The notes under the pieces were generated by a model. That model saw nothing but the letters and a program-made list of their open reading frames with translations, searched no databases and was not told where the DNA came from. The position numbers were made by a program, and so were the translations under genes. DNA of 64,000 nt, taken from the NCBI GenBank assembly GCA_013003425.1, contig JABDJB010000067.1, positions 1-64,000 on the forward strand, given 5' to 3'. This document shows positions 4,008 to 12,745 of this stretch, piece after piece; position 1 is the first letter of the stretch, and each line of letters opens with the position of its first letter. The DNA is from Gammaproteobacteria bacterium. Its GTDB lineage: Bacteria; Pseudomonadota; Gammaproteobacteria; Steroidobacterales; JABDKV01.

Positions 4008-5045
4008 TCAGCCCAGGCAGCTTGTGACGATCCGGTTGGCGGCCTGTTTCTTCTGCATGACGTCGATGTAAAGGGCCGCCATTGCGCGGCCGCGGGCGAG
4101 ATTGTGTTCACCGCAGGTAGCGTAAGTTTCGGCATCCCAGCCAAAGTAGCACTCGCGCAGCGCATCGGTAAGAAATCGGGCTGACAACTCCAGGCAGATG
4201 CGCGCCAGTCCGCTGACCAGTGCGTTCTTCTCGGCATCTGTCAGCCACTCGGGCGCTGCGCCGGCATAGCCGCTCATTACCGCCTCGAGAATGCCAAGAT
4301 CCAGTCTGGCGGCAAGCTGGTCCTCGGTGCGCGGGTTGCACCACGAGCGCAGCGCATCGCCCATTTCCAGTGGCCAGGCCATGCGATTGACGGTATCGAG
4401 GTCTACCAGACAGATGGCATGCCAGTCATTGTCGAAAAGCACGTTGGAAACTTTTAGATCGCCATGGCAATGGCGCAGCGGCAGCTTGTCGATATCGGTA
4501 AACCGTTCAGTGGTTTGCAGTACGTTTTCTGCCAGCGGCGCAACTTCAGCGTGCAGCCGGTGATCGCTATGCGATTTGAGTGTTGCACGCAGTTTTTCCA
4601 GGTGCGCCGGCGTGTCGTGAACGTGCCCGCGGCTATAGCGATATTCATAGTCGAAATCGCTCAGCGCGGTGTGATACTGCGCTGCCATACGGCCGGCTTC
4701 ACTGGCCATCTTTTTGCCGCTGATAGCGTGCGCCGTCTGTCCGCGGATGTAATCGAGCAGGCGCCAAACGCCGTCCGCCGCTTCGCACGACAGGGCTTCG
4801 TCATCACAGCGAATCAGCTTTGGTGTAACCAGGCCCTTCGTCTGCAGGTGTCGGGTAACGGCGTCGATATCGCGATTCACGGTGCTTTCAAACACCGGGT
4901 GCAGCCGCTGCAGGATGTAGCGTTGCTTGCCCGTATCGAGCAGGTAAGTGCGGTTGATCAGGCCCGACTCGATGGGTGTCACGGTGGCACCGTCGAGCCG
5001 GTGCCAGCGGCGCAGTACCTGCGCTGGGATTTGCGCTGCACTCAC
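4008..5045 (-). CDS. APH-fold small-molecule kinase
   Basis: Protein of the aminoglycoside-phosphotransferase/choline-kinase superfamily, 345 residues, closest in style to the N-acetylhexosamine-1-kinase/homoserine-kinase-like branch. It shows the nucleotide-binding N-lobe (ESGLINRTYLL, YILQRLHP), the catalytic loop CHGDLKVSN (about 194-201) and the metal-binding Asp in LVDLDT (about 215), so it should be an active ATP-dependent kinase. The GTG start overlaps the stop of the HMG-CoA synthase gene by 4 nt (GTGA), implying translational coupling. Its substrate is unknown; the coupling suggests a metabolite related to HMG-CoA or its products, which is inference only. An intergenic stretch of about 140 bp downstream holds nothing I can name. 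Confidence 0.85.
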   Translation of the reverse strand: MSAAQIPAQVLRRWHRLDGATVTPIESGLINRTYLLDTGKQRYILQRLHPVFESTVNRDIDAVTRHLQTKGLVTPKLIRCDDEALSCEAADGVWRLLDYIRGQTAHAISGKKMASEAGRMAAQYHTALSDFDYEYRYSRGHVHDTPAHLEKLRATLKSHSDHRLHAEVAPLAENVLQTTERFTDIDKLPLRHCHGDLKVSNVLFDNDWHAICLVDLDTVNRMAWPLEMGDALRSWCNPRTEDQLAARLDLGILEAVMSGYAGAAPEWLTDAEKNALVSGLARICLELSARFLTDALRECYFGWDAETYATCGEHNLARGRAMAALYIDVMQKKQAANRIVTSCLG

Positions 5046-6301
5046 GGGGTTGCCGCCGCGCTCCCGGTGTACTGGCGAATATGGTCGCGGGTGCCTACGT
5101 AATAAAGCCCTTCCTGCAGCCCCCAGTCGGCCGGGTCGGGGTAGGGCGCTTCGTTATGATCGGCGGTCTCGCACGCCCTGATTAATTGTTCATAGCGATC
5201 GATATCGAGGCGGGTGCGCTGTGCCAGGTGATCAGCCGGGTCGAGTCTGCCGGCCAGCTGCGCAGCACGATCGGTTACCAGGCCGGTGCCGAAGGCAGCA
5301 CCGCAGCCGCTGCCGTAGGAAAACAGGCTGATGCGCTGGCCGCCGGACGGGTGCGCCTTGCGCAGGTAGTCCATCAGTGCCAGGAACAGCGAGCCGGTGT
5401 AGATATTGCCGACAATGCTGTTGAGATAAAGCCACGGCGCCACCTGGCGTTCGTACGATTCGCGGATACGCGCTATTTGTTGCGTGTCTTCCCGGGCGAC
5501 GCTGGTGCCCCACTCAGTTTCGCAGTGCCTGTGATGTGCCTTGCGCGCCATCTTTGTAAACGGGACGTGGTAGAAGCAGGCGTCTGTTTTTTCGAGCCGC
5601 AACGGCTCCCAGGAGCCGGCATTTTCGCAGGCATCGCGCCAGGCACCGGTAAACGCGTCGAGGTAGCAATCGATCGAGTAGTGACCGTCGGCAAACGCAT
5701 ACTTGGAATACAGCGGGCGCCAGAAATCCATCACCTGGCGCGTGTAGTCGCCAAACGAACTCGGATCGAGTTCGAGCAGACGCGGATTTTCGCTGACCAC
5801 CATAGCCACCGCGCCGGCCCCCTGGGTTGGTTCGCCGGCGGTGTTCAGTCCGTAGCGGGCGATATCGGAAGCGACAATCAACGCTTTGCGGCCGCGTGCC
5901 CGTCCGGCGCTGATCCAGTCCATCGCGGAAGTGAGACCCGCCATGGCGCCATAGCAGGCGTGCTTGGTCTCAAAAGTACGACAGTTCGGCGCCAGCCCGA
6001 GCTTGTCGTGCACATACACTGCAACGGGCTTGCTGTGATCGACCCCCGTCTCGGTGCCGACGATCAGCGTGCCGATCTCGCCCGGGTCGATGTCGAAATT
6101 CGCCAGCGCCCGGTGCGCCGCGACGGTTGCCATGGTCACCGTGTCCTCGCAGGGCGTGGCGACAGCCATCTGCCGCTGGCCCAGGCCGAGTATGTACTTG
6201 TCGGGGTCCACTCCGCGTGCTTCGGCAAGGTCGGCCATCTCCAGGTAGCACTGGGTGCCGTGAAAGGCCATCGCGTCGATGCCGGTAACCCTGGGGCTCA
6301 T
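5042..6301 (-). CDS. mvaS: Hydroxymethylglutaryl-CoA synthase
   Basis: Condenses acetyl-CoA with acetoacetyl-CoA to HMG-CoA, the first committed step of the mevalonate pathway; related enzymes also do beta-branching in polyketide synthesis. The 419 residues carry the catalytic Glu in VGTETGVDHSK (about 84), the nucleophilic Cys in ETKHACYGAMAGL (about 116) and the His in FYHVPFTKMARKAH (about 245). The C-terminal region has the family's YLNSIVGNIYTGSLFLALMD and LFSYGSGCGAAFG stretches. It precedes an overlapping APH-fold kinase gene and diverges from a MATE exporter. No other mevalonate gene and no PKS gene is near. Members of the thiolase superfamily such as FabH/KAS III are excluded by the His/Cys context. 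Confidence 0.93.
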   Translation of the reverse strand: MSPRVTGIDAMAFHGTQCYLEMADLAEARGVDPDKYILGLGQRQMAVATPCEDTVTMATVAAHRALANFDIDPGEIGTLIVGTETGVDHSKPVAVYVHDKLGLAPNCRTFETKHACYGAMAGLTSAMDWISAGRARGRKALIVASDIARYGLNTAGEPTQGAGAVAMVVSENPRLLELDPSSFGDYTRQVMDFWRPLYSKYAFADGHYSIDCYLDAFTGAWRDACENAGSWEPLRLEKTDACFYHVPFTKMARKAHHRHCETEWGTSVAREDTQQIARIRESYERQVAPWLYLNSIVGNIYTGSLFLALMDYLRKAHPSGGQRISLFSYGSGCGAAFGTGLVTDRAAQLAGRLDPADHLAQRTRLDIDRYEQLIRACETADHNEAPYPDPADWGLQEGLYYVGTRDHIRQYTGSAAATP

Positions 6302-10506: not shown

Positions 10507-10745
10507 TGCGAATCACGGTTGACTATTTCGCGATACTGCGCGAGCAGGCCGGACGCGACCGTGAGGTGATCGAAACCGCAGTCGCAACGCCGCGGCAGCT
10601 GTACGCCGAGCTTGTCGACCGCTACGGATTCGAGCTGCCGGCGGCACGTCTGCGGGTGGCGATAAACGATACCTTTGCCGACTGGTCGCAGGCGCTGGCT
10701 GACGGCGACCGGCTGGTATTTATTCCCCCGGTAGCGGGTGGCTGA
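10506..10745 (+). CDS. moaD: Molybdopterin synthase sulfur-carrier subunit MoaD
   Basis: Ubiquitin-like sulfur carrier, 79 residues, which donates thiocarboxylate sulfur to the pterin within the MoaD-MoaE synthase. The C-terminus is the required Gly-Gly (FIPPVAGG). The N-terminal strand ITVDYFAILREQAGRD is typical. TGATG junctions couple it to mobA before and moaE after. Confidence 0.95.
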   Translation: MRITVDYFAILREQAGRDREVIETAVATPRQLYAELVDRYGFELPAARLRVAINDTFADWSQALADGDRLVFIPPVAGG

Positions 10746-11164
10746 TGTCTTTCAGTTTGTATAAAGAGCCCTTTGATACAGCTGCACTGAGGGGCGCGCT
10801 GGCCGATGGGGGCTGCGGCGGCTACGCCAGCTTCGAGGGCTGGGTGCGTGATCACAATGAAGGCCAGCAGGTTTTGCGGCTGGAGTACGAGGCCTATGCG
10901 CCGCTGGCGCTGACCGAGGGTGAGCGGGTACTTGCCGAGGCGCTGGATAAATTCGAAATATCCGGTGCCGGGTGCGCACACCGGACTGGTAACCTGGGCA
11001 TCGGTGAACTGGCGGTGTGGGTCGGTGTGTGTGCGCCGCATCGCGACGCGGCGTTTCGCGGCTGTCGTTACATTATCGACGAGATCAAACAGCGCCTGCC
11101 GGTCTGGAAAAAAGAATATTACGCTGACGGCAGCGCCGAGTGGGTCAACTGCGCCGGCGATTAA
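10745..11164 (+). CDS. moaE: Molybdopterin synthase catalytic subunit MoaE
   Basis: Large subunit of molybdopterin synthase, 139 residues. It shows GGYASFEGWVRDHNEGQQV, LEYEAYAPLAL, the HRTGNLGIGELAVWVGVCAPHRDAAF stretch with the conserved active-site region, and the Lys motif PVWKKEYYADG close to the C-terminus. It is the last gene of the moa operon. Transcription would run into the long inverted repeat at 11184-11280, a plausible terminator. Confidence 0.96.
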   Translation: MSFSLYKEPFDTAALRGALADGGCGGYASFEGWVRDHNEGQQVLRLEYEAYAPLALTEGERVLAEALDKFEISGAGCAHRTGNLGIGELAVWVGVCAPHRDAAFRGCRYIIDEIKQRLPVWKKEYYADGSAEWVNCAGD

Positions 11165-11183
11165 TTGTCTAATTGGCGTAATT

Positions 11184-11280
11184 GGGGTCAGACCGAGATT
11201 GTTTGCCACAATTGACTGGCAAGGTCCCGCAAATTGCTTTTTATCAAGGCAATTGTGGCAAACAATCTCGGTCTGACCCC
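11184..11280. repeat. Perfect 31-bp inverted repeat (REP/MITE-like pair) with 35-bp centre
   Basis: The left arm 11184-11214 begins GGGGTCAGACCGAG and ends CACAATTG. The right arm 11250-11280 is its exact reverse complement over all 31 positions. The centre is 11215-11249. The GGGGTCAGACC end motif, preceded by TAATTGG-type sequence, resembles repeats found beside REP-associated transposases in many Gammaproteobacteria (recollection, not searched). As RNA it would form a very stable hairpin. It sits between the convergent moaE and alkB-family genes and could terminate both. The right arm is translated as the end of the AlkB-family protein. Confidence 0.92.
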
Positions 11281-11912
11281 TGTACGAAGCGAAAACTGAG
11301 GTTGATACGTGCTTCGGTCACGCGCCGTTGCTTTGGTACCCGATGTTGCCAGTGTCGTTGCGTGTCGCCGCGCATCACCACCAGGTCGCCCGACTGCAGC
11401 TCGAGCCGCTGCACAGCGATACCGCTTTCGCGATAGTCGCGGTGGCGCAGGTCGAAAAACCTTGTGGCTCCGAGGCTCAATGATGCGATGACCGGCTGCA
11501 TGCCCAGCTCACGTTCATCGTCACGGTGCCAACCCATGTAGTCATTGCCGTCACTGTACAAATTGATCAATACGCTGTTGAAAGCCGCACCGGCGGCCTG
11601 TTCGACCGCTTGCCGGATACGGCTGACCACCTGCGTCCACGGTGCAGCGGCCAGCCGCAATCCGGAATAGCCATACTCGACGCCGGTATCGGCCATCCAG
11701 GCAGTCATTCGCGGCTGTTTTACCAGCCGGCCGAACATCTTTATCGGGTCGCTGTGCCAGCTGATTCCCGCATCATTCCTGACTGCTGCAAACAGTTCTC
11801 GTGCCTGCTCTGCGGAATATAGAGTCGGGACATAGTCTATTTTTGCGCCTGCCAGTGCTATGTGTCTGGCAGAGCGTGGAAACAGGTCAGGTTGTTGCGC
11901 AGCGGCGGGCAT
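11244..11912 (-). CDS. AlkB-family 2-oxoglutarate/Fe(II) DNA demethylase
   Basis: Oxidative repair dioxygenase of the ALKBH2/3-like branch, removing methyl lesions from DNA bases. Starting at ATG 11912 (MPAAAQQPDLFP) it has 222 residues. The iron ligands are in GWHRDDE (HxD) and in HWQHRVPK, and the 2-oxoglutarate Arg pair is in EARINLSFR. The substrate-side stretch SVLINLYSDGNDYMGWH is typical. The last 11 residues (GSDRDCLPQLP) are encoded by the right arm and centre of an inverted repeat, so the native end has probably been replaced or extended. A longer frame upstream to 11978 overlaps the VOC gene and is not used. Confidence 0.9.
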   Translation of the reverse strand: MPAAAQQPDLFPRSARHIALAGAKIDYVPTLYSAEQARELFAAVRNDAGISWHSDPIKMFGRLVKQPRMTAWMADTGVEYGYSGLRLAAAPWTQVVSRIRQAVEQAAGAAFNSVLINLYSDGNDYMGWHRDDERELGMQPVIASLSLGATRFFDLRHRDYRESGIAVQRLELQSGDLVVMRGDTQRHWQHRVPKQRRVTEARINLSFRFVQGSDRDCLPQLP

Positions 11913-11965
11913 GTTGGGGCCTGGTTTGCTAGCGTGTCCTGCAAATGAACTGCCGGGGAATCGGT

Positions 11966-12745
11966 ATGGACATTCCACTTGGTCGCATCGTCTGGTACCA
12001 GCTCAATGCGACGGATATGGATGCCGCAGTTGAATTCTACTGTGCTATCAACGGATGGAAAAGCGCGGAATGGCCGGCGAGTGACGACCCCTACGTACTG
12101 TTGTCGACTGACAGCGGTACTGTTGGTGGCGTAATGGCAATACCGGCTGAAGCGCAGGCGGGCGGCGCGCCACAGCATTGGCTGATGTACATTGCGACTC
12201 CTGATGTCGAGCGTTCGGCAGCCCAGGCTGTCGATAACGGTGCGAGCGTTTACGTTCCACCTGCCGATCTGCCGGATGTTGGTCGTTTTGCCGTCCTGGC
12301 CGACCCGCAGGGAGCTGCATTCGCCCTTTACGCGCCAACCGAACCGCCGCAGGACAAGCCGTTCGCGCCCGGGCTCGGCGACGTGTCGTGGCATGAGCTG
12401 GTGACTACCAACTACGCCGCAGCAATGAACTTCTATGGTGAGCAGTTTGGCTGGGTGATGACCGAGGCCATGGATATGGGCGATATGGGCGCCTACCAGA
12501 TGTTTGGTCGCCACGGCGTTTCACTGGGCGGAATGTACAACAAGACGCCGGATATGCCGGCGCCGCCGCGCTGGTTGCTGTACTTCAAGGTTCGTGATGT
12601 GCAGGCGAGCGCGCAACAGGTTGCAGGGCTTGGTGGCAAGGTGCTGAACGGACCGATGGAGGTCCCGGGGGGAGATTTCATCGTCCAGTGCCTCGATCCG
12701 CAGGGTGGTGCTTTCGCACTGCACTCAGCGCGGCCTGCCGCCTAG
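11966..12745 (+). CDS. Two-domain VOC (glyoxalase/bleomycin-resistance-like) protein
   Basis: 259 residues with two tandem vicinal-oxygen-chelate domains: first GRIVWYQLNATDMDAAVEFYCAINGW, then GDVSWHELVTTNYAAAMNFYGEQFGW. Each ends in the DPQGA(A/G)FALY/H signature (ADPQGAAFALYAP and LDPQGGAFALHSA). Such proteins are metal enzymes or binding proteins of unknown substrate; this arrangement is often annotated as a putative hydroxylase or glyoxalase. ATG 11966 is preferred over 11945 because GGGGAA lies just upstream. It diverges from the AlkB-family gene. Confidence 0.88.
   Translation: MDIPLGRIVWYQLNATDMDAAVEFYCAINGWKSAEWPASDDPYVLLSTDSGTVGGVMAIPAEAQAGGAPQHWLMYIATPDVERSAAQAVDNGASVYVPPADLPDVGRFAVLADPQGAAFALYAPTEPPQDKPFAPGLGDVSWHELVTTNYAAAMNFYGEQFGWVMTEAMDMGDMGAYQMFGRHGVSLGGMYNKTPDMPAPPRWLLYFKVRDVQASAQQVAGLGGKVLNGPMEVPGGDFIVQCLDPQGGAFALHSARPAA

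Follow-up and report, generated by a model that had tools for sequence, protein, structure and literature searches.

A perfect 31-bp inverted repeat between moaE and alkB as a probable non-autonomous relative of a TIRYT-type transposase unit

The perfect inverted repeat between moaE and alkB is one member of a small family of ~100-bp hairpin-forming mobile elements. Our reading, to which we give a probability of roughly 0.8 from sequence comparison, is that it is a 97-bp non-autonomous element, i.e., an inverted pair of terminal inverted repeats (TIRs) of a TIRYT-type unit (RAYT-like, HUH/Y1) that lacks the transposase gene, with the cognate unit located on contig C64. The observed support consists of a multi-copy family, a transposase gene flanked by family arms, a deletion derivative, a centre shared by two loci, empty sites in relatives and covariation of the arms. 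The repeat is real and probably mobile, a new member of a kind of element already known. The window, i.e., the whole stretch of 64,000 nt analysed here, lies on contig C67 of a draft genome that totals 3.26 Mb in 115 contigs and is 95.5% complete.

The left arm (11184-11214, forward strand) and the right arm (11250-11280, reverse strand) pair at 31 of 31 positions around an unpaired centre of 35 nt (11215-11249), as the earlier note had described in both coordinates and geometry; the repeat finder lengthens this pairing to 34 nt at 97%. A simple calculation indicates that 64 kb of sequence would not be expected to contain a repeat like this by chance. Folded as single-stranded DNA, it reaches −44.8 kcal/mol (z −12.2; equalled by 0 of 200 shuffles) and, folded as RNA, −67.4 kcal/mol (z −11.2). 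The first 8 nt of the left arm, GGGGTCAG, match the TIRtron motif GGGGWSAS given in the available part of PMC3733652. An RNA-family search with the repeat returned only sub-threshold microRNA hairpin models, which we take as chance matches to the long stem. We also considered an assembly artefact and rejected it for the window copy because its flanks are non-palindromic and belong to two different genes, unlike those of the copies on C8 and C85.

The genome-wide search for the arm sequence, suggested by the earlier note, revealed a multi-copy family: the 11-nt arm core GGGGTCAGACC is found 24 times in the genome vs. once for a reversed control, and the arm is not confined to the window. A similarity search with the element gave 33 alignments in its own genome, and the family comprises about 12-13 loci. 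Eight are short paired elements of 65-105 nt (C67, C8, C85, C106, C17, C94, C92 and C55b), and others are single arms (e.g., on C5, C31 and C109), some of them truncated by the end of a contig, and a degenerate palindrome at C8:637. Contigs C27 and C48 share an overlap of 127 identical bases and, therefore, one of the two is a duplicate. Centres included, the elements on C8 and C85, which lie at different loci, differ at 1 of 102 nt. The window copy, on the other hand, has a centre dissimilar to those of four other short elements (fractions 0.06 to 0.81) and, since it resembles no other tested copy, the window element is not a fresh duplicate of any element seen. The starts of contigs C8 (L004 1-260) and C85 (L016 1-400) form near-perfect palindromes centred on the element, the two flank copies showing a few mismatches. 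They could reflect a fold-back or library chimera, a strain mixture or a real inverted duplication, and are possibly an assembly artefact; as they may be strain or library chimeras, we draw no inference from these outer flanks.

Seven matches to Y1_Tnp (PF01797) exist in the genome, six of them above the curated cut-off and none on C67, which bears out the earlier observation that no such transposase is in the window. The transposase gene on C64 (4298-4999, reverse strand) sits between family arms at 4280 (forward) and at 5101 and 5138 (both reverse), with a flanking inverted repeat score of 25. Its product scores 49 bits against Pfam Y1_Tnp (cut-off 23) and 78.2 bits against NCBIfam REP_Tyr_transpos, below the cut-off of 80; the paralogue on C63 (66% to the C64 protein) is above it with 83.1 bits. 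The motifs HTH, within NHTHLL, and YIELNP fit HUH and Y---NP, the alignment with the solved E. coli TnpAREP (4er8) being weak (E 0.26), and Y---NP is the class 2 signature in the text of PMC6006769 that was available. As to the HTH-like C-terminal extension that characterizes subclass 2.1, the protein extends ~90 residues beyond its core domain, with no match to a Pfam HTH family at E 1e-3. On C55, there is a 119-bp relic of the 3′ end of the C64 unit (92% identity) that comprises the TIR, and the end of contig C27 carries a 5′ remnant covering the first ~32 residues; the full unit has, therefore, left relics elsewhere. No close relative of the transposase was found in plasmids (26 records, all below 60% identity) or phages (one record, 27.6% identity), and a pattern scan of viral contigs for the repeat gave no match. 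Together with the relatives, the genome offers a traceable series, from a full unit to deletion relics, short paired elements and empty sites, and the hairpin can be linked to one particular family of transposases, the mobility of which has so far been inferred and little tested.

The association of Y1 transposases with flanking inverted repeats is not limited to this unit. A flanking inverted repeat scoring at least 14 was found at 29 of 33 transposase homologue loci (three from this genome and 30 from the homologue search, C64 among these; three weaker own Y1 loci and homologue matches without a locus were left out) vs. 0 of 29 moaE control loci. Three of the four loci without it are near contig ends, and the other (L027) has a 30-nt pair beyond the searched range. 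TIR starts vary about GG[GT][GA]NC (GGGGTC, GGGGAC, GGTGTC, GGTGCC and GGTACC). Another TIR family, GGTGTCAGGTTTATTTTTC, occurs as dispersed copies (up to 16) in 5 of 97 genomes, and inverted pairs are common. A second TIR family of the window's own genome, GGGGTCGAACCG, has five copies vs. one for the control and adjoins the C63 transposase (L025 and L146-L150; C63, C43, C56 and C78); its core is also found on the flanks of a 64%-identical transposase in genome G048 (L087).

The earlier note saw in the repeat a resemblance to those mobilised by REP-associated (RAYT/IS200-like) transposases. This is supported insofar as multi-copy arms flank a REP-type Y1 transposase on C64, but the type is TIR/TIRYT and not GTAG REP. 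A classical GTAG-type REPIN or BIME, mobilised by an ordinary RAYT, would account for a RAYT-like gene, inverted doublets and an extragenic position at gene 3′ ends; however, it is improbable, since the GT[AG]G head is missing: the arms start with GGGGTCAG, are flanked by TAATT and are ~31 bp long. Membership among GTAG REPs fails because of this arm head and, as far as the published classification was available to us, no REPs adjoin the class with GGGGWSAS repeats (PMC6006769). Several features of TIRtrons, on the other hand, are present: a RAYT-like Y1 gene between long non-GTAG TIRs, GGGGWSAS at both arm starts, repeated dimers and the HUH and Y---NP motifs. We therefore file the element among TIRtron-derived repeats, REPIN- or MITE-like in function. 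Around another Y1 gene, on C43 (L029 1100-1970), there are several copies of a GTAG-type repeat, CGTAGGAGCGGCTTCCAGCCGCGATA; REP-type and TIR-type systems seem to coexist in this genome.

The repeat is absent between moaE and alkB in all three relatives with that gene pair (G002, G003 and G004), which are the only ones with alkB alongside among 29 moaE loci fetched; MoaE itself is present in 48 of 59 genomes, own genome included. The two genes abut or overlap in G002 and G004, and ~590 bp of other DNA lies between them in G003. The element on C106 also has an empty site, in G003, the single relative seen with both neighbours (the second neighbour judged by eye). The empty site observed thus supports an arrival of the window element between moaE and alkB once its lineage had separated from the relatives sampled. 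Neither an arm confined to the window nor a mutated repeat at this site in a relative, both of which the earlier note had held to speak against a recent mobile element, was found. The full arm pattern (GGGGTCAGACCGARATTNTTNG) occurs in 1 of 97 genomes, the element's own; the 11-nt core alone occurs in 56 of 97, own genome included, with 4, 5 and 3 copies in three congeners. The core is, therefore, older than the arm. A few core copies in relatives form pairs that have different inner stems, as does one pair in G001. Genome G015 (L183-L212) carries 44 copies of the GGGGTCAGACC core, which in the ten loci read belong to the self-complementary 13-mer GGGGTCAGACCCC, often preceded by TTACG; no long arms surround the core in those ten loci.

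moaE (10745-11164, forward strand) ends ~20 bp ahead of the element, and the convergent alkB ORF (2OG-FeII oxygenase; 11244-11978, reverse strand) has its 3′ end inside it. The right arm and adjoining bases (11244-11280) encode the last 11 residues of alkB (GSDRDCLPQLP) and its stop codon. At least one gene 3′ end is located within ~80 bp of the element in 9 of 9 elements examined, considering ORFs only. The gene next to the C106 element, which we take to be VWA-like by resemblance, ends in LGSDRDYL, and its counterpart in the congener G002 ends in LQLN. There, the left arm (L022 1501-1525) codes for a new tail, GSDRDYL, and a stop codon for this upstream gene, in parallel to the alkB tail. 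These elements rewrite protein C-termini, as seen in alkB and in the C106 neighbour.

Such a position also raises the idea, put forward in the earlier note, of a selected two-way transcription terminator. The repeat does sit between convergent genes, its RNA hairpin is very stable, and other copies are close to gene 3′ ends too, some with T-rich flanks. Nevertheless, neither arm is followed by a T-run and no terminator-like match is present at the repeat, the single match of the terminator scan being inside moaE (shuffles mean 1.4); moreover, relatives with the moaE/alkB pair have no hairpin there. We regard termination as improbable, slightly more so than a GTAG-type REPIN, and the proposal found no support. 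As a secondary effect, the repeat may act on RNA.

Perfect arms had been read as a sign of recent arrival or strong selection. In the 27-nt arms of seven elements, own pairing leaves 8 mismatches vs. a mean of 24.0 upon re-pairing (fraction 0.0001 of 20,000 shuffles), with C85 left out as a near copy and C55b contributing five of the eight mismatches. Arms covary within elements and differ between elements. Since arms are matched within most elements and different between them, perfect arms indicate that they are kept matched, not that they are young. Recency thus stands as a post-split insertion, from the empty site, but the perfection of the arms cannot serve as a clock. An analogous test on a different TIR family, covering the 5 of 11 dimers of sufficient length, was not significant (52/90 vs. 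47.2, fraction 0.22). A local origin of the perfect arms, in which a hairpin undergoes inverted duplication or is corrected by template switching instead of the whole unit being transposed, would fit arms matched within and different between elements, the matched unique inner sequence that 2 of 11 dimers show in a different TIR family and the near-palindromic flanks of C8 and C85, but it is the least probable alternative, as these two copies share centre and arms at different loci and the empty sites imply gain of a whole element. Local correction of arms may operate together with transposition.

Returning to a TIRYT-type unit as the source, we infer the C64 enzyme as the mover, along with a chemistry on single strands and the precise positions of cleavage. 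Most likely, the transposase would recognize the element when single-stranded DNA folds into the hairpin; the conserved outer core GGGGTCAGACC would provide a sequence signal and the inner stem a structural one. The unit would be copied or moved in trans into A/T-rich spots near gene ends.

The ends of these elements are often stuttered: outside the TIRs, there are partial copies in tandem that combine local flanking sequence with the first ~6 nt of the TIR. In the window, the left flank (11161-11183) shows TTAATTG / TAATTGG / TAATT ahead of the GGGG of the arm (p = 0.032; 0.70 for the right end), and further loci with such ends are L001, L008, L096, L098 and L116-L145. Compared with shuffled flanks, 41 of 111 ends reach p ≤ 0.01 (7 of 20 in the own family, 28 of 47 in the GGTGTCAGG family and 6 of 44 in other transposase-flanking TIRs), counts that overstate independence because ends from the same array were counted separately, the contig-start ends of C8 and C85 were included and the class of TIRs is A/T-rich outside. 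The stutter is not just a product of assembly, since it is also present in G032 and G087, whose genomes are single contigs. We tentatively hypothesize, though we consider it doubtful, that it is a footprint of TIRYT: repeated nicks ~6 nt inside the TIR (e.g., GGTGTC|, GGTGCC| and GGTACC|) and 5-11 nt outside would, upon repair of these staggered nicks or abortive transposition, leave tandem copies of flank plus 6 nt. In a thin search of the literature, no description of the stutter was found in the available parts of PMC3733652, PMC6006769 and PMC2817692 and, if our hypothesis is right, this type of scar is one not ascribed to HUH transposases in those texts. Stuttered ends could then show where the enzymes of this class of transposases, which is poorly understood, cleave DNA.

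Finally, the element can be placed among known systems; a search for a literature match to the repeat sequence, judged by title, found none. The closest are the TIRtrons and their TIRYT transposases, so named in PMC3733652, whose accessible text describes RAYT-like Y1 genes between long GGGGWSAS TIRs, moderately abundant and occurring in dimers or clusters, and which are mostly assigned to subclass 2.1 in what was available of PMC6006769. Our case differs in that the arm GGGGTCAGACCGARATTNTTNG is seen in no other of the 97 genomes and that the dimers can be seen here to be inserted units, with empty sites, one deletion derivative and covarying arms. With the REPINs and REPs of RAYTs it shares non-autonomous hairpin doublets and a dedicated Y1 transposase gene (PMC2817692, as far as available), but there is no GTAG head here, the perfect arms are longer and the copy number is low. 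According to the portion of PMC6006769 at hand, REPtrons do not seem to undergo transposition as a unit, whereas the C64 transposase unit left relics at other sites. Like bacterial MITEs, defined in the accessible text of PMC3733652 as non-coding, 70-300 bp long and with TIRs common to an autonomous unit, the element is short, non-coding and shares its TIRs with an autonomous unit in the genome. It departs from them in its presumed partner, an HUH/Y1 enzyme, and in the absence of a clean target-site duplication: by eye, no matching direct repeat spans the element, and one-sided stutters are present. MITE partners are usually DDE transposases. The catalytic domain of the C64 protein, PF01797, is related to that of IS200/IS605, a family described in the available text of PMC2817692 as devoid of terminal inverted repeats; the C64 unit, unlike that family, has them.
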